DNA from: a virus
IMG/VR virus record: IMGVR_UViG_3300022857_000066
Coordinates: 1-24,464 of that record
Reading direction: 5' to 3' (one strand)
DNA length: 24,464 nucleotides
Below are positions 1 to 21,007 of this stretch, in pieces; positions within the stretch are counted from its first letter, which is position 1, and the number at the start of each line of letters is the position of its first letter. A model generated the notes under the pieces. The model made no database searches and was not told the DNA's origin. It saw only the letters and a program-made list of their open reading frames with translations. The translations under genes and the position numbers were made by a program.

Positions 1-3000
1 AATAGAATCTCTAAAATAGAAATCTCCATGTATCATTAAAGAGTGATTAGATGTGTGATTAGCTGTTATACCAATAAGTTTTAAACCTGTCATATTACGT
101 TCAAATACTTCTCTACCTGTAGATAATCTAAGAATATTAAGATCTTTTTTAGTATTACTTGGTTGATTAAATAATACAGCATCTTTAGCACTTTTGTAAG
201 TATCAAAGTTACCAACTGATAATTGTTGTTGCATAGTATATTCACTTGATAATACAGCCCAAGCAATATCAATTATCATATTATCACGAGATTCTTTAGT
301 TTCTGGTCCAGATACTACAGCTTTAATTTCAGTTTCTTTTCTAAAACTACCAGCTTCATCATCCCACTCTAATTCATTACGTTTAGCATAATCAATACGC
401 CCTCTCTCAGGATCATAACCAGATATATTAGACTTAGTAAAAGTTCTACCAGTTTTAGTATTTATTTGAGGAGTATTATCAGCAGTTTCCCACTTAGCAT
501 ATTCATCAGGTAATAATTCACCTTCAGCTTTTTCAAGATTATATAGTAATCCATAAAGTTTATCAATATCAAAATCCAATCCTGCAATAGTAGTAATTTC
601 ATCAGGTAGAATAATCATTCCTGAAGGTGTATAACCTATTACTTTAATGTGAAACATTGAATAATAACTTTCTGTAGGAATACGATAAAATATACCCATA
701 AGTAGTTTTTGATCTACTTTATTAAGTCTTTCAATATCTATAGTACCATCACTATTCATATACTTTTGAATAACACGTTTAGATGTTATAGGCATAATTG
801 CCTCAAAGTAATTAATACTTTTATCTTCGTTAAACTTTATTTCAGGCTTTCTAAGACCTTTATCGTTAGTTTTTTCAAGTCCATGAGATGAAGCATTATA
901 TAATGAAGCTCCATTGATAGGTTGTTTAGTTATACCATTCTTATAGAATGAATTAAACATCTTCTCAACCATATCAACAATTGTAGGATGCCACAATGGT
1001 AATACAGTTTTAGTTTTAGAATCATCTAACCAATCAAGTGCTTCTAATAAATAATCACCATATTCTTTATCTTTAATTTCTTCTCTAAGACGATTTACAA
1101 ACTTTTCTTTATTAAATGTACCACTTTCATCGTGCCATTCAGCTTTAAGTTTATCAGCAGATGCTTGTAAGTTAAGTTGTATATATTCTTGATATTGATT
1201 AAATAAATCTTTACCTGTAATACTTGTACCATCTGGATAAAAATAATCTTTATCCATTTCAATACCTTGCATTAATAGTTTTCTAAATTGACTGCCATAT
1301 AAATTCTTAGCATCTAAATGGTGTTGTGGAGTAGCCATCTGAATACTGTAATCAGCATTAGAGAATGTATGTTTATTAAGATTAGTTACTTCATTGATAT
1401 TACCAAGTACATCATATTGCCCTACTTTAACAGCAGAAGTGTACATTAAAGCATCAATTACACGCTTTTTAGTATCAAATGTAAAACTACCATCTTTCTT
1501 AAATGTATAACCCATTTTTTCAAGAATAGCTTGCATTTGAGGATTACCTTTAGCCATTTGTGGTAAAAGTAAAAATTCAGCATTCTTATGTTGAAATGGT
1601 ATTATTAAGTTATTATCTTTATTGATATTAACTTTAGTATGTCCATATACAAAAGGTTTAATAGGATTCATAATTATAGCAGCATTAGCAGGTATTGACT
1701 TACCTTCCATAATACTGTTATAAATATCATTATGAGCATCTGTCCATTGTTCAGTACCTAAATATATCTCTCTAAGTCTGAATATATCAATCCAAGTAGC
1801 CGCATCAGTATTATTAAGACCATCACCTTTAGTACCAAGACCAAAAGCAGCTCTTACATTTTTATTAGCTTCTCCAGGAAATGTTTTTTCAATAATAGCT
1901 TTATGTTCAGTAACTATTTTATTTTGTTCAGTAGCATCTCTTACATAAGCAATATGGTATTCAGGTCTTACATTTACTCCATTAAATGTATTATTAATAT
2001 CAACACCTAAACGCTCACCAGGTGAATATATTTGTTTAACACGTTTAAATACATCTTCCATATTAACATTACCTTTACCTTTGTAATAAGCAATATCACC
2101 TGTAAAAACAGTCATTAATTGAAAGTTCATATACATACTATTGTATATATATTTTTCAAGATTATTAGTATTTTTAAAGAATCTACTATCAACTGTATTA
2201 GATGTATCAGTAATAAAACCTTTATCGTTTTTACTTAATATATTTTCATCAAACATAGATTGTAACTCTTCTTCATATTTTTGCTTAGTAAACTTATCTA
2301 CTAAATCATTAAATCCATCTTCATCATCAAATGTTTCTTCGTTAAAGATAGTAAATGTATTATACTTTCTACCGTTAATAAGTAATTGAGTAGGTATTTT
2401 TTGAAGTTCTATAGGTAAAGGTCTAATGTCTTTAACATCAACTTTTTCATCAAGTACATCTTTTAACCAATTATCAAACTTTTCTTGAACAGGTTCTATT
2501 TGTTTGTTAACCCATTGTATCATACTACGTTCTTGTTTAGCAGAAGATCTAAGACGTTCTGTAACTTCTTCCATAGTAAATTTCTTATGATATAATGTCA
2601 TCATAGTACCAACATCTGCTAATACAGGAAATTGATAATAACCATATGGGTCTTCTACTTTTCTATCAGGATGTCGATTAAACCACAAATTCATTTTAGT
2701 AGATTCTAGCTGTTGTTTACTCATTTCTGAATATACACTTGCTTTTTTCTTACCATCTTCGTTAACACCGTCAAATATAGCAATACGAGTTTTAAGATTT
2801 ATACTGGGGTTATTAGCCATATCATCTAAAAATGATGAATACTTAAAGTAAGGATCACTTTTGTATTCTTTAAAGAAAGCTATGGTTTCTTTATTTGCAA
2901 TACCTTTCATACGATTTAAATGATCTGTAGCAAACCTAGCTTGTAAAGTAGGATATACCATTTTACCTTCACTGCTAACAAAAGCTACTTGAGACATTGA

Positions 3001-3880
3001 AGGTTGAAACTCAGCTATTGCTTTAGCTATAGTAGTAAGTGCGTTACGATCATTCTGACTACCTTGTGCATAAGGATCAACACCTCTTTGCATAGTACTT
3101 ACTACATTAATAAGCCCTAAACTATTAGGATTACCTAAGAACACAGCTAATTTACTACGTCCAGATGTACCTTCAGCAAACATATGAGATAATTCAGCTT
3201 CTGTAATAGGTATATGAATATAATTCATTATATTTGATACAGTTTTTATAGCACTCTCTTCAGCATTTTCAAAAGCATCAGAAGTGTTAGATGCTTTATT
3301 ATAATCCTTTTGTATAGCTGTTAGTTTTTCAATTGCTTTATCAAGATGTTTTATACTTACTGTATTACTTTCTGCATTAAAGTCTTTAGAAGTATATAAT
3401 TGATTTTGCCATTGAGCAATAATATCTTTATGTATAGATTGTCTGTTAGATTCAAATACAGAAGTTTCTACATTAAAAGTTTTTTCACCAGTTGTTTTAT
3501 TTGTATTAGTGTACCTTTTAATTTGTGCAGTAACAAATGATGTATTACTTCGTTGTCCAATAGCTCTCCAAACTTCACGCAACATACCTTTATCATTCTC
3601 AAGTTCAGATTGAAGTATTTCATAATTAGGAAATTTAACTACAAGGTCTTTTACTCGTTGAAGCATTTCAGCTTCAGTTTTAGAACCTGGCAATACAGTA
3701 AGTAAAGTATTTCTTGTAGTATTTGTAGGTTCATATGTTGCGAACCCACCAAATTTTCCTTCTTTAGTAGGTATCTTAGCAAGTAATGCTTTAAACTTTT
3801 GAGAAAATTTATCTATCGCAGAATCAAATCTACCTTTATCTTGCCAACCTTCACGAACTGTACTTTCTTCTTCTGCTTGA
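1..3880 (-). other. RNA polymerase region of the giant protein with DxDxD motif (3' partial)
   Basis: This is the part of the giant frame, roughly residues 1760-3060, that resembles crAss-like single-chain RNA polymerases; the left domain boundary is approximate. The D-F-D-I-D at 562-576 supplies the three aspartates expected to hold catalytic magnesium in the second double-psi beta-barrel. It sits in the context A-G-L-DFDID-K-L-Y-G. The basic S-A-V-K-V-G and G-S-Q-F-R-K stretches upstream are candidates for the lysine-bearing partner barrel, which is inference. About 187 residues follow the motif before the window ends, so the polymerase C terminus is not seen. Confidence 0.85.
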
Positions 3881-6800
3881 GTGTCATCTTCAATACTTTC
3901 AAATGAATCAACAGCTTTGTTTTCAGATGTAATTTTAATACCATGTATTTTAAGACCATTTACTACTCTTTCCATAAAAGGAGTAAATTCTATCATACTA
4001 GTAGTAGCATTAGGTTTTCCTAAAGTAAGTAATAATTTATCAAGTTCTTTTATAGTATTTTCATCAGCAAGTTCTTCCGTAAGAACTTCATGTTCTTCTT
4101 TGACAAAATCATATACTCTTGAGTACATACCTTCAAGACTATAATCATTATATTTAGTATTCTTACCGTGTGCTATAACTTTCTTAATAACAGTTAAATC
4201 ATCAGCATTAGGTATATTAAGTTCATCACGATACTCATTAAGAACATCATTTAATAATATACCATTTAGTAATGCTATAGATAAAGTCTTTTCTCTAGGG
4301 TTTAAGTAACCTTGTTTTTGTGTAGGTTTAACGCTAAATCTAGTTACATTTTTAGTAAATGCAGGAACTTTAAATTTACCATAACTACCTCTATCAATAC
4401 GATAAAAATAACTATTTAATGAAGGAGCATTTTTAAGACCTACTCTTTCTGCTGCAATTTGGATAAGATGATATAACCTTTTAAAGAAGTCCAATACTTT
4501 AGCTGTAAGACCCTCAGTAGCATTACCTTCTGTAAGTTTGTATTCCATAAAAAGATCTGCCAGCTCTTCTTCTTTATTAATAAGACCTTTAGTTTTATCT
4601 TTAGTATTAGTAAGAATATCTTTACGTTCATTTGGTGTTAATAAAGTGTTAAATACTACGTGAAATGCTTCGTGGTATGCTGTACCTGTTTTAGCATTTT
4701 TAGAGATATATACAGAACTGTTTGTAAATAAACCCCATAAATCAACTCCACCAGCTACACCAATAGATTTCATATCATCTAATACTGTAAGTGGTGTATT
4801 AGGATAAGTTTCTTTAAACCATTTAGTTTCAGTCTTTTCATCCCAAACTTCATAAACGTCTTCAGTTACTTCTCGATTTCTTCTAAGTGTAGAACGTCCT
4901 CTTTTAGGTCTTTCTGTAGGTGTAGGTGATACTTCTATTTCTTCTTTTTGAGGTTCAGCAGCTATAATAGCATTTATTTCTGATGTTTTATCAGTAAACA
5001 TTTCCATCTCTCTAGAAGATAAAGTTGCGTTATTTTTTACTTTTTGAACTAAAGAATTAATACGTTCTTTAGTTACTTCGCCTTTATCAATAAAATTATT
5101 ATACTCAATATCCTTCACCTCACTTACAGAAGCAGCTTCTGTTTTAGTAACTTTTTCAGAAGTAACTTTAGTATTTTTAAATACTTTAGGTACTTTAAGA
5201 TGTACCATAGAAGCATAAGTATGATTACCTTTAGGTAAGTTACTTTTTAACCAACCGTTTTGTGATACTTTTTCATTATAATTTCCAGTGTTAAGTTGGT
5301 CAAGGTCAATATTCATAACCTTAGTTTCAAGTTTAGTTTTAAACTCTTCTAAAGTCATAGCTTCAGATACAACTCTTACTTCACCAGTTTTTTTATCAAT
5401 ATCTAATGTATGATATTTACCTTTTTCATATTTAAATTTTAAGTAAATATTCTTTGAAACTTTAATTTCTGCATCAGCAATAAGTTTAGCTATTTCATCA
5501 ACATTAGTAGTAGAAGTAATTTTCTCATCTAACTTATCTAAGATGTCATATACTTCAGCTTGTTCTTTAGGATGCTCACTAAGGTTAGTTGTATATAACT
5601 TAACAGCATGATACATACCACTCACCATCTTAACAAACATTACAATAGCACCTTTTCTATCTGCAAGTTCTGATTCTCCTCTATAAAGTATATTTTCACG
5701 AGGTATTCTAAATTTAACTTCTCCACTATTAGTGTGTATATCTACTTCACCTTTTTCAGTAGTATCTACAGCACCAAAAAACAAAGGTTCTCCTTCATTA
5801 AGAATAGTGTGGGGTGACTGCCAATTTTGAGTAATAGCAAAGTCACCTACTTCTCTACTGTGTATAATAACATCAGTTACACCAGAAGTATATTCACCAG
5901 TAGTTTCTCCACTAGCTTTCCAATCATCATAAACAGCTTGTCTTAATCGTTTAGCATCTTGATTATCAGAACTATCATTTGTATTTTTAGTAGTCCTAAG
6001 AGTACCTATACGTACTAATTTACCATCAATAACAGTATTAGTAATAATAGTAAAATCATCTTTACTTACTTTAGTAGGTGAGTATGTAGAATCTAAAAAC
6101 ATTGTAAATGTAATTGGATTACCAATAAGTTTAGTATTTACATCATCTAATGCTAGAAAAGTTTCATCAGATACAAGTTCTATAGTTTCAGAAGTTGATT
6201 CATTTAAAGCAGCTAATTCAGTATCGTATTTAGAGTTAATTTTACTTTCTTTTTGTTTTACTTGTTCTTTGAGGTTTTTAAGATATTTTTCACCAGCTTC
6301 CTTAGAATCAAAATGCCCAACTAAAACTTCAGCTCCTTGTGTCATTACACCATCAGTATTTATCTGTGGTTTTCTGACATTTATTATCATCATGTAAGGG
6401 TCTTCTTCAAATCCTTTTGACGTATGGTCTTGAAAAGAAGCTTTATACTGATTTCCTTTGGAATGTTTTTTACCAATCATTTTCACAACTTCAACATTAG
6501 AAGTCGCATCTTTTTGAAAAGATTCTTCTATTTGAAAACGGTCTCTCTTACTTAATTTATCTAATTCTTCTGTTCTTCTTTTCTCAATATTAGTTTTAGC
6601 ACTTGTATTGTCAGTTCCTTCAATTTCAATAGTATTAAGCTCACTTCTAATAGGTTCTCCATCATTATCGTATAGTACATGGGGACCACCTTCTTCAAGA
6701 TTTTCAAATGTACTTGGGTCAGCTTTAGTAATAGATACATCTTTTGTTTGAAGGAATTTAATTTTTCCATCCTTCATTGTATACATTACATAAGGATTAC

Positions 6801-9180
6801 TTTGTACATTTAATTTATTAGCAAAACTAATCTCTCTAGCTTGATTATTATTACCGTTATCTGGAGTTGGAGAAGCTTGATTAGCTTCAACATCAATATC
6901 TGGTAATGGTTCTTGATTAAAAGATTCAAGTATTTTATTTTCAAAATACCTATCTACAATATCTTTAAAATTTTTATTACTATTATACTTATCTACAAAA
7001 GATTGTGCATCAGTAATACCACTTACATTAAGTCCTTTTTTAGCAAATGCTGCTAATTCACGTTTAAGTAATGGTTTACTAGCATACCTTTCTAAGAAGT
7101 CTTCTGTTGTAGTAGGATTTGTTATTACTCCTTTACTAGCAGCATTAGCTAATATTGTAAGTTTAGCTTTAACAGCAGCACCTACAGTTTCATCATTAAG
7201 AAGTTTTTCTTGTTCTTCTAAAGATGTTTCATTATTTACAGTAGCAAGTACTCTATTTTTAAAAGCTTCTGCTTTTCTTAATGGTTCATCAGCATCAAAA
7301 ACTTCTTGTCCTTTTTTAGTAGATAGTTTATTAAGGATATTATCCGTCATACCTATCTGTACTTCATTTTCAACCTTTTGCATAACTTGTTTATCAAGTT
7401 CTGATTCTTCAGCAAATGATGGAGCTATTGGTAATTTACCTATGTCAGTAAGTGATTTTTTTATTTCTGCTATCTTTTTAGAACTATCTTTAATCTTAAA
7501 ATTAAGTTCCGTGTTTAAAGCATCATTTTCAGAACTGTCTTCTGTATCGTTATATTGTCTTTTTCCTTCAATATAATGCTTATTAAGAGCTAATTGCTCC
7601 ATAAGATCTATATGTAAAGAATCTGTTCCTATAGAAGCTTCTGTTTTAAGTTTTGAAGTTCTAGCTTCAATATCTTTCATAGTTCGTCCTAAAAGACGTT
7701 TAGTATAAAAACTTGCAAGTTGTTCTTTTTTAACAGCTTCAGAAGTAGTTTTATCACTAAATATATTTACATACTGTTCTCCAATATATTCAAGGTCTTC
7801 TGCTATTTGTTTATCTGCTACTTTTTTATCTGCTATAGCTTCTTTAGTCCAACCATCAGCTTCAAGGTCTGCATCAGATACTTCAGCAACTTGTTTGTAA
7901 TGTTCTTTAAGGTCATTTAATTTACCTTCACTTGCATATTTATATATTTCGTTTAAAAGTAAACCACCTTTTGCTTTTGCTACAGTATTTAAGTCATGCT
8001 TATCTATACCTGCATATATAGCTAATGCAGCATCTTGTAATCTTTCTGTTCTGTCACCAACAGTATCTGATATTTGTTGTGCGCCTGAAAAGAAACCTCC
8101 ACCAACTGCACCAAGTGTTACAGCAGCTTTAAATTCTGGGTCTTCAATATAATCACTTAAACGACCTCCTAAACCTTCTAATTCAAAGTAACTAGCTTTT
8201 TTATCTAATGCTGTACGTTCTGCTTCTTTAGATATTGTAAATTGACCACCTTCTTCAAGACCTTCAGCAGTTACATCTCTAGCAAACTTAAATGCTCTAT
8301 CTCCTAAACCTTCACGAAACTCTTTAGAAGCTTGTGTAGCCATATTAGAACCTTTGCTAAGTACGTTATATTGTATAACGTCTGTTGCTAAGTTTACCCA
8401 ATTGGTATTCCACGCTTTAGAAGCTGCTTCACCTGCTCTCATACGAGCTTCTTCATCACCTACACCTTGCTGTAATAATTGCTGATATGAACTATTAAAG
8501 GTTTCATTAGCTTCCATAGTGTTTTCAGCATATCGTGAAAATACAGCACTCGAAATACCTTTTATACGAGCAGGTGTAGCTATAGTCTTTAATGCTTTAT
8601 TTATTTTCATTAGCTTACTAGCTCCAGAAGCTAATGCAGTCATACCATAAGCAGGAATCATCAATGATAAACTTGTTGCTATACTTTCTGCATTATAAGC
8701 CCACCAACTAGCATCTCCAGGTGCAAAACCTGTTTGTGCAGCTTCACTACGATATATAGGTGCAAACTCTTTAACAGATTCTTGAGCTTGCTTCATAGAT
8801 TCAGCAAACCAGTTAGTATACTCTTGTTCAGTACCTTTAACTATACCTATTGCTTGGTCAGCATCAACAAAATAAGATAATCCTTCTAAACCTCCTAAAA
8901 CAACTGTAGAAGCTCCTTGTGCTAAAGCATTAGCGGTTTGTTGCCATCCTGATTGTGTGGCAGATAATACAGCTTCTCTATTTTGTCCTGGAGAAAATTG
9001 TATAGCATCATCAAATGATGTTTCGTAATTTGAAAATGTATCTATACGTCCACCTGAAACAGCACTGCCTATTTGCTCATTAGGGACTTGAAATATATCA
9101 TTAGATGATTTTCTTCTCTTTATAGGTTGATTATTACGATCTAACTCCCCATTCTCTACTATAGGATCAAATATACCCAT
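1..9180 (-). CDS. Giant virion protein: internal-protein-like N terminus, zincin peptidase and crAss-type RNA polymerase (3' partial)
   Basis: The frame is open from the ATG at 9178-9180 to base 1, at least 3060 residues, with its stop outside the window; an in-frame TAA at 9196-9198 fixes the 5' limit. Residues 1-400 are Ala/Gly-rich with hydrophobic stretches (about 85-115, 161-190, 345-365) and resemble internal or ejected virion proteins. Residues 400-700 are charged and probably helical. HEAFH at 1503-1507, followed by E1538-x-x-A-D, is a zincin zinc site. From about 1760 the sequence follows crAss-like RNA polymerases: YYQFPVLAD (2181-2189), GDIAYYKGK (2361-2369), SAVKVG (2582-2587), GSQFRK (2629-2634), YRIPTESYYSM (2832-2842) and the catalytic D-F-D-I-D at 2869-2873. 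The family comparison is from memory (phi14:2 gp66 is the characterised virion polymerase). It is the last visible gene of the cargo operon, 18 bases after the lysozyme gene. Inferred role: packaged, injected, and transcribes early genes. The polymerase call is strong; the N-terminal role is inference. Confidence 0.9.
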   Translation of the reverse strand, partial: MGIFDPIVENGELDRNNQPIKRRKSSNDIFQVPNEQIGSAVSGGRIDTFSNYETSFDDAIQFSPGQNREAVLSATQSGWQQTANALAQGASTVVLGGLEGLSYFVDADQAIGIVKGTEQEYTNWFAESMKQAQESVKEFAPIYRSEAAQTGFAPGDASWWAYNAESIATSLSLMIPAYGMTALASGASKLMKINKALKTIATPARIKGISSAVFSRYAENTMEANETFNSSYQQLLQQGVGDEEARMRAGEAASKAWNTNWVNLATDVIQYNVLSKGSNMATQASKEFREGLGDRAFKFARDVTAEGLEEGGQFTISKEAERTALDKKASYFELEGLGGRLSDYIEDPEFKAAVTLGAVGGGFFSGAQQISDTVGDRTERLQDAALAIYAGIDKHDLNTVAKAKGGLLLNEIYKYASEGKLNDLKEHYKQVAEVSDADLEADGWTKEAIADKKVADKQIAEDLEYIGEQYVNIFSDKTTSEAVKKEQLASFYTKRLLGRTMKDIEARTSKLKTEASIGTDSLHIDLMEQLALNKHYIEGKRQYNDTEDSSENDALNTELNFKIKDSSKKIAEIKKSLTDIGKLPIAPSFAEESELDKQVMQKVENEVQIGMTDNILNKLSTKKGQEVFDADEPLRKAEAFKNRVLATVNNETSLEEQEKLLNDETVGAAVKAKLTILANAASKGVITNPTTTEDFLERYASKPLLKRELAAFAKKGLNVSGITDAQSFVDKYNSNKNFKDIVDRYFENKILESFNQEPLPDIDVEANQASPTPDNGNNNQAREISFANKLNVQSNPYVMYTMKDGKIKFLQTKDVSITKADPSTFENLEEGGPHVLYDNDGEPIRSELNTIEIEGTDNTSAKTNIEKRRTEELDKLSKRDRFQIEESFQKDATSNVEVVKMIGKKHSKGNQYKASFQDHTSKGFEEDPYMMIINVRKPQINTDGVMTQGAEVLVGHFDSKEAGEKYLKNLKEQVKQKESKINSKYDTELAALNESTSETIELVSDETFLALDDVNTKLIGNPITFTMFLDSTYSPTKVSKDDFTIITNTVIDGKLVRIGTLRTTKNTNDSSDNQDAKRLRQAVYDDWKASGETTGEYTSGVTDVIIHSREVGDFAITQNWQSPHTILNEGEPLFFGAVDTTEKGEVDIHTNSGEVKFRIPRENILYRGESELADRKGAIVMFVKMVSGMYHAVKLYTTNLSEHPKEQAEVYDILDKLDEKITSTTNVDEIAKLIADAEIKVSKNIYLKFKYEKGKYHTLDIDKKTGEVRVVSEAMTLEEFKTKLETKVMNIDLDQLNTGNYNEKVSQNGWLKSNLPKGNHTYASMVHLKVPKVFKNTKVTSEKVTKTEAASVSEVKDIEYNNFIDKGEVTKERINSLVQKVKNNATLSSREMEMFTDKTSEINAIIAAEPQKEEIEVSPTPTERPKRGRSTLRRNREVTEDVYEVWDEKTETKWFKETYPNTPLTVLDDMKSIGVAGGVDLWGLFTNSSVYISKNAKTGTAYHEAFHVVFNTLLTPNERKDILTNTKDKTKGLINKEEELADLFMEYKLTEGNATEGLTAKVLDFFKRLYHLIQIAAERVGLKNAPSLNSYFYRIDRGSYGKFKVPAFTKNVTRFSVKPTQKQGYLNPREKTLSIALLNGILLNDVLNEYRDELNIPNADDLTVIKKVIAHGKNTKYNDYSLEGMYSRVYDFVKEEHEVLTEELADENTIKELDKLLLTLGKPNATTSMIEFTPFMERVVNGLKIHGIKITSENKAVDSFESIEDDTQAEEESTVREGWQDKGRFDSAIDKFSQKFKALLAKIPTKEGKFGGFATYEPTNTTRNTLLTVLPGSKTEAEMLQRVKDLVVKFPNYEILQSELENDKGMLREVWRAIGQRSNTSFVTAQIKRYTNTNKTTGEKTFNVETSVFESNRQSIHKDIIAQWQNQLYTSKDFNAESNTVSIKHLDKAIEKLTAIQKDYNKASNTSDAFENAEESAIKTVSNIMNYIHIPITEAELSHMFAEGTSGRSKLAVFLGNPNSLGLINVVSTMQRGVDPYAQGSQNDRNALTTIAKAIAEFQPSMSQVAFVSSEGKMVYPTLQARFATDHLNRMKGIANKETIAFFKEYKSDPYFKYSSFLDDMANNPSINLKTRIAIFDGVNEDGKKKASVYSEMSKQQLESTKMNLWFNRHPDRKVEDPYGYYQFPVLADVGTMMTLYHKKFTMEEVTERLRSSAKQERSMIQWVNKQIEPVQEKFDNWLKDVLDEKVDVKDIRPLPIELQKIPTQLLINGRKYNTFTIFNEETFDDEDGFNDLVDKFTKQKYEEELQSMFDENILSKNDKGFITDTSNTVDSRFFKNTNNLEKYIYNSMYMNFQLMTVFTGDIAYYKGKGNVNMEDVFKRVKQIYSPGERLGVDINNTFNGVNVRPEYHIAYVRDATEQNKIVTEHKAIIEKTFPGEANKNVRAAFGLGTKGDGLNNTDAATWIDIFRLREIYLGTEQWTDAHNDIYNSIMEGKSIPANAAIIMNPIKPFVYGHTKVNINKDNNLIIPFQHKNAEFLLLPQMAKGNPQMQAILEKMGYTFKKDGSFTFDTKKRVIDALMYTSAVKVGQYDVLGNINEVTNLNKHTFSNADYSIQMATPQHHLDAKNLYGSQFRKLLMQGIEMDKDYFYPDGTSITGKDLFNQYQEYIQLNLQASADKLKAEWHDESGTFNKEKFVNRLREEIKDKEYGDYLLEALDWLDDSKTKTVLPLWHPTIVDMVEKMFNSFYKNGITKQPINGASLYNASSHGLEKTNDKGLRKPEIKFNEDKSINYFEAIMPITSKRVIQKYMNSDGTIDIERLNKVDQKLLMGIFYRIPTESYYSMFHIKVIGYTPSGMIILPDEITTIAGLDFDIDKLYGLLYNLEKAEGELLPDEYAKWETADNTPQINTKTGRTFTKSNISGYDPERGRIDYAKRNELEWDDEAGSFRKETEIKAVVSGPETKESRDNMIIDIAWAVLSSEYTMQQQLSVGNFDTYKSAKDAVLFNQPSNTKKDLNILRLSTGREVFERNMTGLKLIGITANHTSNHSLMIHGDFYFRDSI
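4567..4674 (-). other. Zincin metallopeptidase active site inside the giant protein
   Basis: Within the giant frame, residues 1502-1507 read Y-H-E-A-F-H, the zinc-binding and catalytic HExxH motif of zincin metallopeptidases. About 31 residues further on, E1538-E-L-A-D-L-F gives an E-x-x-A-D third-ligand motif as in gluzincin-like enzymes. The preceding stretch contains W-G-L-F and S-K-N-A-K-T-G-T-A, which reads like the strand and turn before the helix. Zincin-like domains are, from memory, known in giant crAss-like phage proteins. The target is unknown: self-cleavage of the giant chain, other virion proteins or a host protein are all possible. Confidence 0.8.
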
Positions 9181-9198: not shown

Positions 9199-12171
9199 TT
9201 ATAGGTTATTACCTATTGCAAATGCACTATCAATAAGCTTTTCTAATTCAGCATCAGAAGCTTTTTCTAATCCAACCCATCTAATTTTAAGACGTTCTTT
9301 TAGTTTACTCCTTGATGTAGTACGTTTGGCTTCATCTTTTATAAGCTCTAATGCCATTCTTTGTTGTACTTCAGGAGTTACTTTTGAATCATAAGGAATG
9401 TTCAATTTATCAGCATACTCTTTGAAAGTATCTTTTGTAAATTGAAATTTACCAACCGCATGAATCCTATCTCCACTATCCTTACTGTCTTTTGGTATGT
9501 TTTGACGTTTCATTACGTCTGATATAGTCATGTCTACGACACGTTTACCAATAATGTTATAACTATTTCCCCCATTGAAAACCTCACGTCCCTCATCAGC
9601 ACCTCCTTGGTTCATTGCATTGTACTCACCTGTGTTACCCTCACTTTCATAATTACCTATAGTATTGAATGCATAATCGACATCTGCTTTAAATTCTTTT
9701 GGGATGTTTAAAGATGTAGTACCTACTTTTTCTTGTTCACCATAATACATTTGATTTTTAAATATAGAAGATAAATGTTCTTTAGCATCTACTTTATTCA
9801 TTTTTAAAGGGTTTTCTCCTGCCTCTACTAGCATTTCAGTAATACTCCTTACAGTACCTTTTTCAGGGTCAAATACTTTTCCTGATATTGAATAACTTCC
9901 AGTAGGTGTTACAGATACAACAATATCTCCATATGATCCTGTAACATCATCGGGTCTTCCAAATTTAGCCACTGTAGAAGTACCTTTGTAAGTACCTTCG
10001 ATAATATCAACGGCTCTGTCTGTCGCAATAACTTCTTTCATTTGAGGATTTGTCATAAATTGCCGCATATTATCTGTAACATCAACATCATATTCGGAAC
10101 TTTTAATTATTTCTCCATCTTTAGTTGTAGAGAATAACCCTCTTACCATCCACTTATCGTTAATATTATCAAAGTAAAAACTTCTAGGAACGTAATTACC
10201 ATTACTAAAATCATGAGTGTCATTATCAGTACCTGCTACGTATAAACTTTTTATATTTTGACCGTCTTCCCCATCAGGTTGTGTCATAGCATTCAAAGGT
10301 GAGCCTTTATAGTAAACACCTGTACCTCCTTGCATACGAGCAATCGCAGCATCGTTGATAATTTTATGAGACATTGGTATTTCCTTAGATGTAAGATCTC
10401 CATCTGTCTTTGTCAATAAATATCCTGTAGTAGTAAACTCTTCTTGTCCAAAGTTAGACTCAATAGCTTCGTTTAAATTAGAATAATACTTTTCGTATTT
10501 TTTAGGAATGAGTTGATCATTTTGAATAATAAAATCATCTCTCAACTTATGTTTAACAAGCTTGACTCTAGAAGCTCTATCCATTTCATCGCTTAATCTT
10601 GTAGTTTCTTCAGCCCATTTTTTATAAGAAATTCCATTACTTTTTTCTGAAATATAAAAACCACCATGTTTATCAGTAAAATCTTTAGTTTCATCCAAAA
10701 GGTTTTTATAATCAATAGTAGCATCATAAACAGCTCTTATTCCAGGAGTTAACTTATTTAATTCTTCTTTTATTTTTTCCTCGGTAGGTACTTCATCCCC
10801 TTCAGAAAGAGTTTTAAGTGCGGCATCATTAGTTGATTTTGAAGCTTTACGTCTTTTTAACAGCATAGCATCTGTATCTTGACGAGCTTGTTCTTCAACT
10901 TCTGAAGGCTCTGTTTTATATTGCCAATTTCCGTCAGGCATTTGAACAGGTTTATTATTTTCTTTTAATTTATTATGAATAACATCAAAAGTACTTGCAT
11001 ATATATTTCTTTGTTTTTCTATAAATGTTGTATCATAATCTCTACGTTCTTGAGGATTAAATGTTCTACTTGGAGCATAACTCATATCATTCAATGAATA
11101 TCCAGTTTCCGAATCTATACCTGTAAGTGCGTTTGTACCAATGGCTTTTGACATATTGGCTATATTAGTAATTTCTCCAGCAGGTGTATTTGTAGCGTTA
11201 ACAACATTATAATCTATTTCCCCGATAGGTCTAAGTGGTATTGATGATTCTTGTCCGTATTCACTAGACCCATCAGCACCAGCACCAGTAAGATTTTGCT
11301 TACCTTCTGTAAAGAATGATAATTCTGCAATATTCATATAATTATCAAATAAAGAATCCCATTTATATTGCCCTTCTCTACCTTCTCTTTTTAAAGACTC
11401 CATTTTCCAAGCTGCATTTTGAGCCATTTCAGGATCTAAAGCAGTTAATGCTTCCATATTAATAGTACCATCATCATTCCTAAATGAACTAAGAAACTTT
11501 ATAGAGTGGTTCTTTACACCTTCATAATCTAATATTTTATCTGTTTGTTTATGTCTATACTCAGGTTTACCAGTTTCAGGATTATTTACTAAAGTATATT
11601 GATCATCTATAATAGGTTTTATTTTTTCAATATAAGGAGAGTATGTTTTAAGGTCTGATACGTTTTCTTGAAAATTATAATGAGCACCAGTAATCATTTC
11701 GTTTCTACCAGCCATAGCTTCTAAATCACCAACATTCCATTGTCCAGTTTTATCATCATGAGCACCAAAACGACTGCTAACACCATAACCTTTTGCATTT
11801 ATACGGTCATCAACAAATTTCTTTGTATCATAATCAGACTGTATTAGTTTGATTCTAGGGTCAGCAGCTCTTTCTTGAGAAAACTTAGATAATCCTCTTG
11901 CGGCAGCTCTATAATTTCCATCTGTAGCATATGCATCAGATATAGCATTAAATTTTGTTTGATAGTCTTGTTCAACTTTGTTAGCATACTCTCCTTGTGT
12001 AGCATAACCTGCATTTAAACCTAAACCAGCTTCAGCTTTACCTAAGGCTATATTCATAGCATCATTACGTCCTTGATTTATTTGACCCATTTGCATCATA
12101 GCTCCAATAGGTAATGGGTCTATTGTATCTTGAAATTCTTTTGCTGAAAATTGAGTAAATCTGTTAGCCAC
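9199..12171 (-). CDS. Internal virion protein with C-terminal lysozyme-like (peptidoglycan-cleaving) domain
   Basis: This 990-residue protein starts at a GTG (12169-12171) three bases after the preceding stop; no ATG lies close to that position. The N terminus (FTQFSAKEFQDTIDPLPIGAMM) has the look of phage internal or tail-associated proteins that begin with a short aromatic/proline motif. The middle is charged and mostly helical with no recognised fold. Residues about 827-920 look like a goose-type lysozyme or transglycosylase: Y-E842-S-E844-G-N followed by YNAMNQGG gives the E-S-x-G context of a catalytic glutamate, and G-K-F-Q-F at 907-911 matches the G-x-x-Q-F substrate-cleft motif. Inferred role: local wall digestion during DNA entry, since it sits in the cargo operon and not in a lysis cassette. 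The upstream neighbour carries a peptidoglycan-binding-like repeat. Which glutamate is catalytic is uncertain. Confidence 0.8.
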   Translation of the reverse strand: MANRFTQFSAKEFQDTIDPLPIGAMMQMGQINQGRNDAMNIALGKAEAGLGLNAGYATQGEYANKVEQDYQTKFNAISDAYATDGNYRAAARGLSKFSQERAADPRIKLIQSDYDTKKFVDDRINAKGYGVSSRFGAHDDKTGQWNVGDLEAMAGRNEMITGAHYNFQENVSDLKTYSPYIEKIKPIIDDQYTLVNNPETGKPEYRHKQTDKILDYEGVKNHSIKFLSSFRNDDGTINMEALTALDPEMAQNAAWKMESLKREGREGQYKWDSLFDNYMNIAELSFFTEGKQNLTGAGADGSSEYGQESSIPLRPIGEIDYNVVNATNTPAGEITNIANMSKAIGTNALTGIDSETGYSLNDMSYAPSRTFNPQERRDYDTTFIEKQRNIYASTFDVIHNKLKENNKPVQMPDGNWQYKTEPSEVEEQARQDTDAMLLKRRKASKSTNDAALKTLSEGDEVPTEEKIKEELNKLTPGIRAVYDATIDYKNLLDETKDFTDKHGGFYISEKSNGISYKKWAEETTRLSDEMDRASRVKLVKHKLRDDFIIQNDQLIPKKYEKYYSNLNEAIESNFGQEEFTTTGYLLTKTDGDLTSKEIPMSHKIINDAAIARMQGGTGVYYKGSPLNAMTQPDGEDGQNIKSLYVAGTDNDTHDFSNGNYVPRSFYFDNINDKWMVRGLFSTTKDGEIIKSSEYDVDVTDNMRQFMTNPQMKEVIATDRAVDIIEGTYKGTSTVAKFGRPDDVTGSYGDIVVSVTPTGSYSISGKVFDPEKGTVRSITEMLVEAGENPLKMNKVDAKEHLSSIFKNQMYYGEQEKVGTTSLNIPKEFKADVDYAFNTIGNYESEGNTGEYNAMNQGGADEGREVFNGGNSYNIIGKRVVDMTISDVMKRQNIPKDSKDSGDRIHAVGKFQFTKDTFKEYADKLNIPYDSKVTPEVQQRMALELIKDEAKRTTSRSKLKERLKIRWVGLEKASDAELEKLIDSAFAIGNNL

Positions 12172-12174
12172 TTG

Positions 12175-13941
12175 TTATTTGTTTAAGTAAGGTTTAAGCA
12201 TCATCTCATCAAATGTTTCTGATATGTTAGCTCTATTTATATTGTGTATACCTCCGTTATGGAAGTTAGGTTTCTCTATTTGTTTATATCCTTGTAACCA
12301 ATCTTCAGTATAGAATTTAGAATTATTATCTATAGGAATTGGAGATTCTGAATATCCATAAATTCTTTTTTTACTTGGGCTTTCTAATAATGAACCTTTA
12401 TATTCTACAAAATCAGGTCCTTTATAACCCATATATAAAGATTTATCAATCCTTTCATTCATAGGAATACCTTTATTGAACCATACTTTATTAGCATTAT
12501 CAGTATTATCCATCATCCAATTATTACTTGTTCCTTTGGGTGCAGCCCTTAAAACACCACTCTCAGCAGCATCTTTATAACCAGTATTTCCAAGCATTCT
12601 ATAATAAGATTCTGAATCTGGTTTAAAAGCTAAAGGATTATATTTATAAGTATTTTTTAAGGGAGTTTCTTCTGTCAGATATTTACCAGCTTGTTGTACT
12701 GTATTTTTTATTTGAGGTAATTTTTCAATACCTTTCATAACACCTAAACCTAATAGTTCACCACCTATAATATCTCTATGATAAGCTTCAGCATCAGCTC
12801 TTTGCTTACCAGTCATATTAGGTGCTGCAAATGCCCAATTAGGATTACCTACATAATTAGCTGATCTATTATCTGTATTAGGAAAATCTATTTTGTCATT
12901 ATTAATAGGTTGTTGTACAACACTATTAGGATTAGCTTTAGCATAATTAGATGCTAATCTATTATTTTCTTGTATTAATAAATCTTCATTAATAATGTTA
13001 TTTAAATAATTATCAGGTAAAACCCCTAAATTATTAATACCTGTATTTCCATTGTTTAACGGTTTAGTAGGATCTGTAGGATCACTTCTTAACCCACCAT
13101 CTTCAAAACTAGTTTTTACTGCATATTTTTTAGCTGAAGTATCACCTTCTTGGCTACCAAATAATTGAGCCACATTTCTTACAAAGCCATATGGACTACT
13201 TGCTTTTCCAACCGATTCTTTTATTTTATCAGTAGATGTTCCATTTCTATTCAAATGTGTGTATGCATCATTGTTAAAATCATAATTATCGAGAACTAAA
13301 GTATCTGGTTCAGATGTAAATGTTTGAGGTGTTGTCACTATAGATGCTCTACCTAATACAGATTGAGTTTGAAATGCAGGGTCTGTAAGTAATGATACCG
13401 CAGTTTTTACTCCAGAATTTGAACTGTAGGCTTTACTTGGTCTAACCGTTTCATAATCTTTATAATCTATGTATGATTTTCCAGCAGCTAAATTTTTTCT
13501 AGTTATATCCCGTAAAACACCAACTTGATCTTCTGTAAAATCTCCTTCGGTTCTAATTGGATTTTTATCATTAGAACCATAATCCATAAATTGCTTTCTG
13601 AAAATATCATCAGTAATGGCAGATATAGTAGTCATTGCTCCAGGAAAAGCAGCCTCTAAAAACCCTGTAACTGGTGCGCCCTCTCTTATATTTCTTCTGT
13701 TTTCTCCGTCACTTTTAGGATTATCACTTTTAAATTTTTGATAGAGATTATGGGTATTTTCTCCCCACTTACCGTCTTCAGCAATAGCCTCTCCTAATTT
13801 ACCCAATTCAGGATAAGATTCGTTTAAAAATTTTTGTAGAACACGAATGTTAGTCCCTTCTTCGATAGTAGGAGAATAGACCTTAGAGACATCTTTAGTA
13901 TCTTCCTCACCACCTAAAGGCTTTTTAGTAGGATCTGGCAT
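12175..13941 (-). CDS. Virion-associated protein with peptidoglycan-binding-like N terminus
   Basis: This 588-residue protein starts at an ATG one base after the TAG of the upstream gene. Residues 31-72 carry the pattern of a PG_binding_1 repeat: N-I-R-V-L-Q-K-F-L, then E-D-G-K-W-G-E-N-T and Y-Q-K-F, matching LQ..L, DG.WG..T and a closing aromatic. Residues 195-232 (VLGRASIV, then L-D218-N-Y220-D221-F-N-N) form a compact module with a D-x-Y-D motif; colicin M-type lipid II hydrolases have a similar motif but the later H and R spacing differs. Residues 446-560 (YYRMLGNTGYKDAAESGVL, VWFNKGIP, GYKQIEKPNFHNGG) look like a separate globular domain that I cannot name. The middle is Asn-rich and low in complexity. 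The gene sits between two other cargo-type genes. A wall-related virion function is inferred; only the peptidoglycan-binding call is reasonably supported. Confidence 0.7.
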   Translation of the reverse strand: MPDPTKKPLGGEEDTKDVSKVYSPTIEEGTNIRVLQKFLNESYPELGKLGEAIAEDGKWGENTHNLYQKFKSDNPKSDGENRRNIREGAPVTGFLEAAFPGAMTTISAITDDIFRKQFMDYGSNDKNPIRTEGDFTEDQVGVLRDITRKNLAAGKSYIDYKDYETVRPSKAYSSNSGVKTAVSLLTDPAFQTQSVLGRASIVTTPQTFTSEPDTLVLDNYDFNNDAYTHLNRNGTSTDKIKESVGKASSPYGFVRNVAQLFGSQEGDTSAKKYAVKTSFEDGGLRSDPTDPTKPLNNGNTGINNLGVLPDNYLNNIINEDLLIQENNRLASNYAKANPNSVVQQPINNDKIDFPNTDNRSANYVGNPNWAFAAPNMTGKQRADAEAYHRDIIGGELLGLGVMKGIEKLPQIKNTVQQAGKYLTEETPLKNTYKYNPLAFKPDSESYYRMLGNTGYKDAAESGVLRAAPKGTSNNWMMDNTDNANKVWFNKGIPMNERIDKSLYMGYKGPDFVEYKGSLLESPSKKRIYGYSESPIPIDNNSKFYTEDWLQGYKQIEKPNFHNGGIHNINRANISETFDEMMLKPYLNK

Positions 13942-13942
13942 A

Positions 13943-16006
13943 CTATGCTGTTTTAGCTACTCCAAATGTATTTTCATACATCTCTCTAAGCATTGCGTTA
14001 GTATCCATAGTATTCATTTGTCTTGTTGTACCAGCACCTGCTCTACCTAAACCATCAATAGCTTCATAATAATTAGATTGTGCTACACCTTTATTAGCAG
14101 CTTCATCTTGCATAGCTCTCATTATAGTACCATTGTTAATTTGATCTTCTTGTGCTTGAAGTGATATATTAGTATTAGCTACACTTTCACGTATACCTGC
14201 AACATTTTGAGAACCACTTGTAGCTAAAGTTGCTAATGTACTAGGGTCAGCTCTACCTGATTGTCTAGCTACTTCCATTGCAGTAGCTCCCATATCTCTA
14301 GCTGCTCTTAATTGATGTTGTGCAGACATTCTACCACTTTTAAATGTAGGGTAATTTACTGGATCACCATCTTTAGGTTCTTTTGCTAAATAAGCCAATG
14401 AACTTGCTGCATTACCTCCAAAACTTAATACTCCTTGATACAATTGTTTAATTTGTTCAGGAGTCATACCTTCTTTTTTAGGTGGAGGTATAGCAGCTTC
14501 ATCTGTAGGTATATTAGAGTATTCATCTAAATTAACAGCATTATTAGCATTATCAAACATAGATTTATAATCTACTTGTGGTAATTTATTAGTAGAAAGT
14601 CTATCTTGCCCTGTACCACCACTAACTTTTAATCTATCTAAAAAAGCTGTTTGAAGTTCATCTCCTGATAATCCTTCTACACCAGTAGTATTATATAGAG
14701 GATTCATAGTAGGTGTACTATCAAATTCAGTACTCCAAGGGTCGTTAGATGGGTCATTAGGATCAGTAGGTCTTACAGAACCATAGTTACCTGCATATTT
14801 CTTTTTCATACCACCATTCTTAAATTCTGTTGTATCATTATATCTTGTTCTAGGAACTTCAGCTTCACCTTGAAATCTACCTCTAGCAGCCCTACTTTTT
14901 TCGTTTTTTATAAAAGCATTTGCATCTGATAATGCTGTTTTTTCTTCTTTATCTAATGCTGCTGTACCTACACCCCCTGCAATAGCTGTACCTGCGCCTA
15001 CAACGGCAGATGCAATTTGTCCAAATACGGGCACTGCGTTTAATGCTACTGCTGTTGTACCTGCTATAGCAGTTCCTGTAGTAAGGTCTTTTCTTTTTTT
15101 TGCAATCTTAGCCATTGTGTCGATGTAATCTTTATTTTGCATTGCATCTTGATTTACAGTATTTGGTTTTTTGAATGTGTCATACATAGTACTAGCCGCA
15201 TTAATTGCTGCAGTAGCCGTATTGAAACCAGTTGATGCTTTTGCTGTAGTCGAAGGTACTGCTGTATCGGATTTTATAGGTGCAGACGTATTAGGCATTA
15301 CAGAAGCTTCATTATATCTTTGAGGGTCTGCAAATAAAGGATCTTCATTAGGCAAAAACGAATTTTCATTTGTAAAATCTTCGCCAGCATTGAATGATTC
15401 GTTTCCAAATTGCTTTGGAGCACTAAAAAAATTATTAAGCTGTGTGGGATTTTCTTGTGTTGTACCAAGACCAACATTATTAGTATTGGTGTTAAGATTA
15501 GATCCTGGGTTTATCGTTGTTGGGCTTGATGTAGGAGTAAATCCTATGTTTTCATTTGCGTAATTAGGGTCTATATTATTAGTATTAGCATCGTCACTTA
15601 TAGTAGGTGTGCTGTATCTAGGTCTATTAGTACCGCCAGTAGCATAATTAACACCACCAGTTTTAAACTCATTTTGGTCTTGATTACCTTCTACATTAAA
15701 AGGATCTATACCTTCAGAGACTAAATCATTAACTTCTTTAAGTATAATCTCTGTAGCAGCAGCATCAAATGATATATCTGAAATTCTATCTCCTACAGGT
15801 CTATTTTGACGTTTATTATCTTCAGCTTTAAGTTCCTTAATGTGCTTAGATATTTTACGAAATATAAATTCATTCTTAGAACCTCTAGGAGTATAAGCTT
15901 TTTCACCACCTTCTACTTCAGCATCATCAGTATAATCTAATCCTTTTAACGCATGAGGTAATCCCTCAAAGTCTTTTATTCGTGTTTGTTTATTAAAAGT
16001 TCCCAT
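13943..16006 (-). CDS. Internal virion (cargo/ejection-type) protein with hydrophobic Gly/Ala segment
   Basis: This 687-residue protein starts at an ATG (16004-16006); an in-frame TAA at 16025-16027 and no nearby alternative start fix it. It ends with TAG, the only amber stop I saw in the set. Residues 130-260 are Asn/Thr/Pro-rich and probably disordered. Residues 309-351 form a long Gly/Ala/Val-rich hydrophobic stretch (TGTAIAGTTAVALNAVPVFG and onward) that could insert in a membrane. The C-terminal 170 residues are Ala/Gln/Asn-rich and helical, like internal proteins of Bacteroidota phages. Two F-K-x-G-G motifs occur at 114-118 and 395-399. It is the first gene after promoter 16015-16045 and heads the cargo operon. 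No enzymatic motif is visible. Assignment as a packaged protein rests on composition and position. Confidence 0.7.
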   Translation of the reverse strand: MGTFNKQTRIKDFEGLPHALKGLDYTDDAEVEGGEKAYTPRGSKNEFIFRKISKHIKELKAEDNKRQNRPVGDRISDISFDAAATEIILKEVNDLVSEGIDPFNVEGNQDQNEFKTGGVNYATGGTNRPRYSTPTISDDANTNNIDPNYANENIGFTPTSSPTTINPGSNLNTNTNNVGLGTTQENPTQLNNFFSAPKQFGNESFNAGEDFTNENSFLPNEDPLFADPQRYNEASVMPNTSAPIKSDTAVPSTTAKASTGFNTATAAINAASTMYDTFKKPNTVNQDAMQNKDYIDTMAKIAKKRKDLTTGTAIAGTTAVALNAVPVFGQIASAVVGAGTAIAGGVGTAALDKEEKTALSDANAFIKNEKSRAARGRFQGEAEVPRTRYNDTTEFKNGGMKKKYAGNYGSVRPTDPNDPSNDPWSTEFDSTPTMNPLYNTTGVEGLSGDELQTAFLDRLKVSGGTGQDRLSTNKLPQVDYKSMFDNANNAVNLDEYSNIPTDEAAIPPPKKEGMTPEQIKQLYQGVLSFGGNAASSLAYLAKEPKDGDPVNYPTFKSGRMSAQHQLRAARDMGATAMEVARQSGRADPSTLATLATSGSQNVAGIRESVANTNISLQAQEDQINNGTIMRAMQDEAANKGVAQSNYYEAIDGLGRAGAGTTRQMNTMDTNAMLREMYENTFGVAKTA

Positions 16007-16014
16007 ATTGTTTA

Positions 16015-16061: not shown

Positions 16062-19000
16062 TTATTTATCACCTTTTCTAAAATAGTTTATTATGTGATA
16101 AAGCTTGAACTCTTTATTGTTATTATTAAGGAATGAAAACTTTTGTTTCATCCAATGGGAACGTATTCTATTACGTGTACCAAATTCATAAGTAATAGCA
16201 TGTCTCCAATTACGTAAAGTACGTTTAATATCAGCACGTATGCCAGTTGTTTGATAAGAATTACTAGATGTAACACTATCAAATGTTTCATCCGTAACTT
16301 CTACACCATTAGTATCTATAACATCAGTAAGAAATTCAGTATTATCAAATATCTTAGTTATAGTAGCCATAGGGTTAACTGTAATTGTTATACTAGATTC
16401 CGTAGGAACATTATCATAAAATACACCTCTCTCGCCTATATCGTGTAGATATAAATCATTTAAGTCGCTAGGATTAGCTGTAAGGACATATCTTCCATCA
16501 TTGATATAAGTAGTAGGCTTAAAGCTTCTATAGCTCACAAAACGATCCTTAGTGTCATTGTAGGCTATTGTAAAGGAACGTCCAACCATATCAAATAATC
16601 CATTGTTATTAATGTTACTATCATTATCATAGAAAGTAATGAGGTATTCTTTATTACGTATGTCATACGTACCACAGACACCCATAGGAGTTATATTACC
16701 ACTTTGTGCAGGACTATCTACTTTTAGTATGTTACCTCTTGTATTAGAGTATAACCATCCTTTAATCTTATCGGCAGAGATATCCTTTAATCCTTCAGAA
16801 TTATATACATAAAGTCCTGCATCTTTAGAATCCCAAAACATAATCCCATTAGGAGATTTTATAAATGAAAACTGATGCCATGAACCTATACTTTCTGATA
16901 TATAATTAAATCTAGGTAATACACCTGATTGACCTAATACAATACCTCCACCAGTATTATCATTTACTACAGATCGTTCATTAACAGATGCTACACCAAA
17001 ACCTCTTTGTTGCCAAGCTACTATATTATCACTTGCTTTCATAAGTTGACGTATTTCACCTAAATCACCTTGTATATCAATATATTTTTCAGAATCAAAT
17101 ATTCTCCAAGCATCAGCAAGTTCACCATATACTTTAGGAGCTGAAGCCCATATTCTTACAGGATGTCTTAAAACTTCAGTAGTATTTAATGGTATTGGAA
17201 ATGAACGTTGTGTGTCCATTTGTTCAGAAAATACATAATTGTATTTAAAATCTTCTCCGTAATCTAATGGGTACTGTTCCGCATCAGGTGCTTGGTCGTC
17301 AGTACCATACATATATCCGATAGGATTTTGAGTCCCATTAATTGAATAACCATGTCTCATATCAGTATTAACAAATGATTCGCATGGGTAGTATAATCCT
17401 ACTGCTATTCTTTTATCCCCGTTTCCCTTGGGTTCATTGTTTCCAGTAAAATCATCAAAACTTTTGGTCATTTTTAAAGTGTCAAATACATTGACATAAG
17501 TATCTCCACCGTAAACCTTAACTGTATGTTGTAAAGTATTGCTATTTAAAATAACATGTGCTCCTGTGTTAATATAAACATTTTGAGAACGTGCTGAATA
17601 TCCTGGACCTCCGTATTGTCCATCGTTTTCACGCTCGTAATTTACTAGGTATTTATCAGCATGGAAATCAACATCGCCACCTCTAGGATAAAAATTACTT
17701 GTAGAACCCATCATATTTATATAGAAATCATAAGGTATTCCTCTGTCTAATACAACAGCAGCAGTATCTGTACCTCTTGAACGTCTACCATCAGGACTTG
17801 TTATAAAAGGACTACGATTCTCAAATTGATAAGTATCTATTAAAAAATCATCATCAAAAGCAGCATTTCTAATCTCTTTAACATCAAACGTATTACTGGT
17901 TCCTGCTGGGTCTTCATAAGGTATATTATGATATATTTTAGAGTATACGGTTTTAATTGCTGGCTGTAAAGCATTATCTTTTGTGGTTTGATAAGTACCT
18001 AATCCTTGTACAATCCTTATTTTATCATTGGTTTTTTTATTAATGTCTCTACCAAATAATAAATCTGGAGAATGAAATGTTACTATCGGATATGATTCTA
18101 AATTACCAGAAAAAGAATTACTAGGATTCAATGTAGAATCTGGCAAACTACTTATATTATTAAGATAATGATTTTCACCTAAAGTAGGATGATAAGTAGC
18201 GGGAATATGCGAATTATCTCTTACACACATATGAATAATACCTTGTGCCAAAACAGTTCTATCTTCAGGCTCTAATTTGACACGTTTAATAACCCAACTA
18301 TCTATTTGATCTGCAATATTGGCAGGAATATTTACAGTAAATTCTACACCTAATGTATTTACATACCATACGTTATTTGCTTTTGACATAAGTGGAAATA
18401 CTTTACCTTCATTTTCAGCAGCATCTACTGCAAATCCACTTTGAAAATCTTCAAATATATCGGGCATACGAATATCTCCTATCCACTTAGCATAACCTTC
18501 ATTACTGGCTTTTGTAGGTACTAATGAAAATCTATACGTTTCTCCTCTACGGTATCCTTTATAGGTATGATCTATATAAGGAGATTTAAAATCAGTAAAA
18601 TAGTTACCTTCCGTATATAATGTACCATCTCCTAAATTAACAGTAGCATTACCTCTCCAAGGTAATCTATAAGGGTATACATAACCTGGGTCTGTTCTTG
18701 CATCTGCTAATAATTTTTGATTAACAAATTTATATTTAATATTTGGACCCTCACCACCTAAAGTAACACCATCAGCTTGGTATTTGTAAATCTTTTGATT
18801 AGGATTAATAGCATCAGAAGTTTCATCAAGACCTGTTAAATCTAATACAGAATTATATGGTGCGCTAGGAGTAGCACTTACATCATTTAAAATTACTTCT
18901 TGTGTATTATCAAATCTATAAGCTCTAGCATCAAAATTTAAGTTAAAAGGGTCTCTTTTAGTGTTAGCTGCAAATAAGATATTATCTTTTTGAGCTATCG

Positions 19001-20252: not shown

Positions 20253-21007
20253 TATCTTCTGGAGTTTGTATTATTTCTAAAATTTGTTTGATTTCTCAAT
20301 ACTTGCATCTTACCTGAATTAGCATGTCCTCCAGCATGTTCATCTTCAAAAGATACTATACGTCTAAATTGGTTAGCAATACTTCTAGTTTTATCTCTAT
20401 TGGGTATTAATGCTTTATTTTGTGCAGCACCAATATAATACATTCTTTCTGTTTTTATATCATCGTATACATCTTTAGCCATTTTACCTCTAATCCTGAG
20501 TTTCATTGCTATACGTTCAGCTACATAAGCTGTAGCAGCTTGTTTAAACTTTTCATCATCAGGTACTGTTGGGTAACCCCTTTCATCAGTAGGAAATGCC
20601 ATGTAAGCCATTTCAAGTTTACCTTCTTTAAAGTTAGTCCATATGTAATTATCATTAACTTTATAAGTCAAATCAGAACTACATATTAAGTCTGGGCATT
20701 GTGCCGAATGCATACGTTTATGAAAACTATCCGTAGAATATCTCATAGGTGTACCTTCACATGTACGTGTTTGTACAATAATTATAAGATCACATGGTAG
20801 CTCTCCTCTACCATTAATAATCTCTATATAAGGCTTATCATGTCCATCAGTAATACGTTCAGTATACTGCATAGGAGCGTTAATAAGATCAATGACACTA
20901 CCAATCCATTCAGCAATATCTGTCCAATCAGTATCTACGGTAAAACCATAGTCTCTGTGTACACGTTCAACAATTGTTTCTAAACTTACGCTTTTACCTG
21001 AGAGCAT
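20252..21007 (-). CDS. Connector/ring-type tail protein (P22 gp4-like, crAss-like)
   Basis: This 251-residue protein starts at an ATG after a 22-base AT-rich gap, and its stop overlaps the next start by one base (TAATG). The N terminus (LETIVERVHRDYGF, then DIAEWIGSVIDLI) is a helix pair followed by an acidic/aromatic beta region (ELPCDLIIIVQT). A helical C-terminal half (EKFKQAATAYVAERIAMKLR) follows, which is the general plan of head-to-tail adaptor proteins. The tail is Asn/Arg-rich. Placed directly before the tail-stabilisation gene, it probably forms one of the rings under the portal. Which ring is not determinable by eye, and the P22 gp4 comparison is from family knowledge, not alignment. 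Confidence 0.65.
   Translation of the reverse strand: MLSGKSVSLETIVERVHRDYGFTVDTDWTDIAEWIGSVIDLINAPMQYTERITDGHDKPYIEIINGRGELPCDLIIIVQTRTCEGTPMRYSTDSFHKRMHSAQCPDLICSSDLTYKVNDNYIWTNFKEGKLEMAYMAFPTDERGYPTVPDDEKFKQAATAYVAERIAMKLRIRGKMAKDVYDDIKTERMYYIGAAQNKALIPNRDKTRSIANQFRRIVSFEDEHAGGHANSGKMQVLRNQTNFRNNTNSRR

Follow-up and report, generated by a model that had tools for sequence, protein, structure and literature searches.

A fused internal virion protein and RNA polymerase in a crassvirus, and a cysteine rule suggestive of disulfide-joined cargo chains

The window analyzed here is a DNA stretch of 24,464 nucleotides (positions 1 to 24,464 of IMG/VR record IMGVR_UViG_3300022857_000066). ORF listing and translation showed a single ATG-started frame of 3060 codons on its minus strand, running from 9180 to 1 and open at the window edge. 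What is this chain made of, and why should its parts be made in one piece? The first-pass annotation had described at least 3060 uninterrupted codons joining internal-virion-like, zincin and RNA polymerase parts, perhaps as an unusually large ejected polyprotein with entry, processing and early-transcription functions. The frame was borne out without a stop, and HEAFH and DFDID lie together on the chain at the residues where that annotation had placed them. With GC near 30%, chance cannot, judging from composition, account for so long a frame without a stop. The features of the window are listed below.

1..9180, minus strand: A+B fusion ORF, residues 1-3060 of 3919 (no Cys codon in the window)
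7888..9033, minus strand: A N-terminal domain, residues 50-431, homologous to p-crAssphage gp45, crAss001 gp47 and phi14:2 gp67 by iterated HMM
4369..4818, minus strand: C-terminal zincin-like domain of A, residues 1455-1604 (weak profile matches only, to zincin metallopeptidases in the PDB)
4660..4674, minus strand: HEAFH, residues 1503-1507 (EE..A at 1537-1541 may supply the third ligand)
2137..4323, minus strand: B N-terminal half, residues 1620-2348
1..2226, minus strand: B catalytic half, residues 2319-3060 in the window, homologous to phi14:2 gp66 (PDB 6VR4)
562..576, minus strand: DFDID catalytic motif, residues 2869-2873, aligned with DFDID of 6VR4
9199..12171, minus strand: 990-aa ORF in cargo-protein position (no Cys, none at the termini)
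12175..13941, minus strand: 588-aa ORF in cargo-protein position (no Cys)
13943..16006, minus strand: 687-aa ORF (no Cys)
16062..20252, minus strand: crassvirus muzzle protein (PF25731, 1.7e-140; 4 Cys)
20252..21007, minus strand: crassvirus tail ring protein 1 (PF24228)
21816..22508, minus strand: crassvirus tail ring protein 2 (PF25702)

A search across viral contigs returned a second IMG/VR contig, IMGVR_UViG_3300023294_000015 (67,342 bp), which covers window positions 1-23626 at 99.99% identity, with 2 mismatches and 1 indel. This sole indel, an inserted base at 16010, is intergenic and outside the long frame. In the longer contig the frame has the identical start and extends to 3919 aa (P0002); the C terminus noted earlier as missing was thereby recovered. 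P0002 is followed by a 1675-aa frame (P0003), with an 11-base overlap between the two. No frameshift or assembly error was found, the second contig encoding the matching frame.

The modules were labeled A, B and C from profiles built and iterated within the present analysis; Pfam and PHROGs gave no match anywhere in the giant protein. By homology, the 3919-aa frame joins two known virion cargo proteins of Crassvirales end to end. A is assigned to the phi14:2 gp67/crAss001 gp47 family, an internal virion protein ending in a zincin-like domain, and B to the phi14:2 gp66/crAss001 gp50 family, the two-barrel virion RNA polymerase; P0003 is assigned to C, of the phi14:2 gp65/crAss001 gp49 type. Residues 2319-3160 matched phi14:2 gp66 (6VR4) in phmmer at 2.3e-30, with DFDID opposite DFDID, and the aspartates of this DxDxD catalytic motif are invariant in the alignment. 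On the A side, residues 73-365 match p-crAssphage gp45, an iterated profile unites the N-terminal domain with crAss001 gp47 and phi14:2 gp67, and the HEAFH domain in which crAss001 gp47 and its relatives end is matched by residues 1431-1616. The AlphaFold model of the A N-terminal domain was nearly all helical but too weak (mean pLDDT 59), and the fold search with it gave no match. The polymerase module begins near residue 1620, and the extra head of 84-138 residues found on stand-alone B is absent from the fusion. The 850 or more residues noted beyond the polymerase correspond to the A cargo protein, the length of about 2200 aa given for the phi14:2 polymerase is correct (2180 aa), and the two halves of the chain are homologous to separate known proteins, with the polymerase match around residue 2869 as anticipated.

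Packaging in virions and transcription of early genes have been reported for the phi14:2 polymerase, and crAss001 gp47, gp49 and gp50 are virion proteins (PMC10172136). By analogy with these related phages, packaging, ejection and early transcription may be presumed for the window phage. Crassvirus muzzle and ring proteins adjoin the cargo genes (PF25731, PF25729, PF24228, PF25702), which places the window, on gene content, in Crassvirales. Elsewhere in the window, a 93-aa ORF at 21030-21311 had a sub-threshold Pfam match to the DnaJ-like C11 C-terminal domain, and genes for a Rieske-type and a ThiF-like protein lie on the early side of the long contig (L012:17801-18295 and L012:2578-3258).

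A+B fusion proved to be routine in these phages. Among 73 non-redundant related contigs, 33 were fused, 32 separate and 8 unclear (33/65 of those classifiable). The 29 complete fused frames span 3093-5711 aa, the 3919-aa chain being the ninth smallest. Published genomes show the same architecture: the Suoliviridae cr50_1 (4774 aa) and cr118_1 (4946 aa), the recoded cr113_1, cr114_1, cr115_1 and cr4_1 (4272-4493 aa) and Flavobacterium phage Fpv1 (4401 aa). In p-crAssphage and crAss002, B and C are in one protein. A review gives proteins of up to about 6000 aa (PMC10136315). Consequently, contig census and published genomes led us to reject novelty for either size or fusion. The core of the first-pass proposal stands, namely a crAss-like virion RNA polymerase fused to an internal virion protein with a zincin-like motif, and "unusually large" has to be given up.

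A more distinctive property emerged from the cysteines. A, B and C are nearly free of Cys, and those present are found at the boundaries between separately made chains: one Cys lies within a few residues of the upstream chain's C terminus and another just past the Met of the downstream chain. For all loci combined, internal ends carried a Cys in 298 of 310 cases, against 0/192 for outer ends; these raw counts are inflated by relatedness, and the tree-based figures given below are the fair ones. This rule was noticed first and tested afterwards on fresh contigs from another query (a query with an Intestiviridae alignment yielded one contig only). Counting cysteines up to about 8 residues from an end, the first set had one at 91/96 of the internal C-termini and 107/116 of the internal N-termini, and at none of the outer ends (0/43 C-termini, 0/69 N-termini). 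Six of the nine N-terminal exceptions are A+B fusions missed by the A profile (cr50_1, cr118_1, Fpv1, L057, L069, L074), so that the ends concerned are truly outer ones and the count becomes 107/110. The independent contigs gave 49/51 internal C-termini and 51/53 N-termini (100/104 in total), with 0/38 and 0/42 at the outer ends. For N-terminal counts any Met within the first 26 residues was accepted as start, and recoded Suoliviridae loci, whose frames are broken by table 11, were excluded.

Two independent loci were exceptional: in L143 the break lies inside B of a Cys-free chain, and in L106 it falls at the DxDxD codons. In both L106 (frames meeting at ALTGSDFD) and cr108_1 (L019:19464-19755), a fused A-B frame is broken exactly at these codons, as expected for a self-splicing intron.

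Background Cys content of the chains was 0.08% in the first set and 0.02% in the independent contigs, and other ORFs at these loci, with 0.74% Cys overall, had a terminal Cys at 7% and 6% of ends. Moreover, the number of cysteines tracks the number of internal ends. A-B-C fusions (mean 5138 aa) had none in 7/7 cases, A had one in 19/21 and C one in 38/56; the modal count was two for B and one for AB. Some B and C proteins contain further cysteines. The offset is variable, mostly 0-3 residues from the C-terminal end and 2-5 after Met, and in A of L075 and L076 the nearest Cys, at -24 and -32, is not near-terminal. The window phage follows the rule closely. In the longer contig, the sole Cys of AB is residue 3916 (..IIECYGK) and that of C is residue 5 (MANNC..); the four window ORFs from 16006 down to 1 comprise 5325 codons with zero Cys, against 1.45% Cys in the early-side ORFs of this phage. 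The rule holds across the order. For phi14:2, the chains read A ..TIC / MACK.. B ..QECK / MSCK.. C, with end cysteines gp67 C1797, gp66 C3 and C2179, and gp65 C3. The crAss001 equivalents are gp47 C2339, gp50 C5 and C2404, and gp49 C5.

Fusion removes the Cys pair. Mapped on a tree built from 130 polymerases, no fewer than 18 changes of state are needed at A|B and no fewer than 9 at B|C, and independent pairs scored 9:0 at A|B (p 0.004) and 6:0 at B|C (p 0.03) for Cys loss with fusion. A Cys pair is also found at the cut when A or C is split elsewhere (L030, L034, L071, L094, L069). In crAss001, cr85 and DAC15 the A gene is on the opposite strand and the rule is still obeyed; a nucleotide-level cause, such as overlapping stop and start signals, is therefore excluded and the cause is at the protein level. 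Different subunits share end elements, one C-terminal family occurring on A, AB or B and one N-terminal family on B or C. The former resembles W/F-N-x-M-S/T-x-E-E..C and the latter C-I/V-N..F..L; at the AB and C ends of L008 and at many other loci they look like exchangeable couplers. No earlier report of the pattern was found in the open literature. The rule thus appears to be unreported, a claim of novelty that is provisional.

The cysteine pattern itself is solid. From it we infer that the terminal cysteines form disulfides, that these serve ejection and that reduction frees the parts. We consider it probable that the A-B-C order is maintained for ejection by either of two interchangeable means, gene fusion or end-to-end disulfide. 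We also incline, with slightly less assurance, to the fuller proposal that the polymerase is ejected as one covalent A-B-C thread, joined by peptide or disulfide bonds, nearly purged of other Cys and parted by reduction in the host. The A-B-C chain would be packed in the head and leave through the narrow tail in a partly unfolded state. With separate genes, the C-terminal Cys of the upstream chain would bond with the Cys just past the start of the downstream chain; in the window phage, AB Cys 3916 would be joined to C Cys 5. Once in the host cytoplasm, the disulfide would undergo reduction, the parts would refold and B would transcribe the early genes, the fixed thread ensuring ordered delivery. 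Inter-subunit disulfides are present among other crAss001 virion proteins, and crAss001 cargo, with several copies per subunit per virion, must pass constrictions of less than 50 Å partly unfolded (PMC10172136). A head-to-tail disulfide would fit both observations. Phage N4 (L185) ejects its vRNAP gp50, a chain of 3500 aa, along with gp51 and gp52; all three lack Cys entirely, which matches the prediction for a single chain needing no clip. Many crassvirus hosts are anaerobes, in which bond formation would call for some oxidizing route; among 20 early-side proteins of the long contig, no thioredoxin-type or oxidase domain was recognized.

The same cysteines could serve an otherwise ordinary A+B fusion as docking points, metal-bridged contacts or thiol switches between neighbors, with no disulfide. 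Fusion is indeed common, the head and tail elements that surround the Cys resemble small docking modules, and a Cys pair could sit in a non-covalent interface. However, only the Cys is near-universal while the surrounding residues and the offset vary, a better fit to a flexible covalent link, and a usual metal site would need more than one Cys per side. We therefore judge this explanation unlikely, with a real chance nonetheless of being right.

Self-processing, with the zincin between A and B cutting the chain either within the head or once injected, would be compatible with the cysteine link. HEAFH and the following EExxA are widely conserved among relatives, HExxH having been partly a selection criterion for the sequences compared. 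Against PDB profiles the region gave weak matches, all to zincins; its AlphaFold model was of low confidence (mean pLDDT 61) and the fold search gave no match. The zincin was intact in 34/60 fused proteins versus 2/29 co-directed split A genes, and in P1 the DdrB protein, with a similar domain, undergoes processing; cleavage by the zincin-like domain has been proposed for polyvalent proteins (PMC5512222). On the other hand, the N4 vRNAP, which has such a domain, is packaged uncleaved (PMC5512222), and the zincin is dead or undetected in 26/60 fused proteins, the largest among them. Moreover, the separate A of crAss001, cr85 and Dulem virus 41 ends in a zincin domain, so this domain belongs to A, fused or not. 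The link between zincin and fusion was not significant in a tree-aware test (p 0.22), with the raw counts leaning towards it. Given the dead zincins of large fusions and this test, self-processing is possible but not supported; we hold it to be unlikely, and the "processing" of the first-pass annotation was not retained. In some proteins the domain is still recognizable with WExxR (e.g. WEAFR) in place of HExxH, as in the A-B-C fusions of more than 5600 aa in L051, L053 and L073 and the contig-cut L091. C has an HExxH of its own in the window phage (P0003, L008:14970-19997; HEVGH at residue 451) and in phi14:2 gp65 (HEIMH at 245), possibly a second zincin-like domain near the B/C junction.

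A role of the terminal cysteines as signals for packaging or degradation of each protein, with no part in linking, is very unlikely: the cysteines do lie at extreme termini, like short sorting signals, but they occur on both sides of each internal boundary, are absent from all 192 outer ends and vanish on fusion. Finally, an assembly artefact has a negligible chance of explaining the joined frame, for although the contig is metagenomic and ends within the gene, which might invite the suspicion, the second assembly agrees with the first, and dozens of contigs and published genomes share the architecture.

No viruses in the human gut are more abundant than crassviruses. If true, the covalent thread would account for the ordered, fixed-ratio delivery of three proteins of 150-280 kDa through a channel of less than 50 Å, and would amount to a disulfide-built polyprotein disassembled by reduction inside the host. 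The rule points to fusing genes and linking by disulfides as interchangeable answers to one delivery problem, and it predicts exactly which cysteine bonds with which, in phages already cultured.

The closest known systems compare with the window phage as follows. Cellulophaga phage phi14:2 has a homologous catalytic core with DFDID, equivalents of A (gp67) and C (gp65) and an equal gene order, but as three separate proteins of 1797, 2180 and 1421 aa instead of the 3919-aa AB chain. In crAss001 (Steigviridae), gp47, gp50 and gp49 likewise correspond to A with its C-terminal HEAFH zincin, the B polymerase and the C partner, all of them virion proteins; they are also separate, with A on the opposite strand. 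The A+B fusions of cr50_1, cr118_1 and Fpv1 have the order found here, with about 25% local identity, and are longer than the window AB. In cr50_1 and cr118_1, HEAFH is followed by DFDID as in the window phage, whereas the A part of Fpv1 has no HExxH. The giant fused RNA polymerase cargo of p-crAssphage (gp44, 4070 aa) and crAss002 (gp33, 4245 aa) is joined at B|C instead, with A separate. N4-like giant vRNAPs (Schitoviridae gp50) are ejected single-chain polymerases with an HExxH domain and no Cys, but have a single-subunit, T7-like polymerase fold unrelated to the crAss-like B. Polyvalent proteins (Iyer et al. 2017, PMC5512222) are multidomain injected phage proteins with a zincin-like domain, as here; no conflict domain was recognized in the window AB protein. 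The virion two-barrel RNA polymerase of P23-45 (5002 aa) is likewise fused to another virion protein, although its partner is the tail tape measure protein of a long-tailed phage (PMC10770324).
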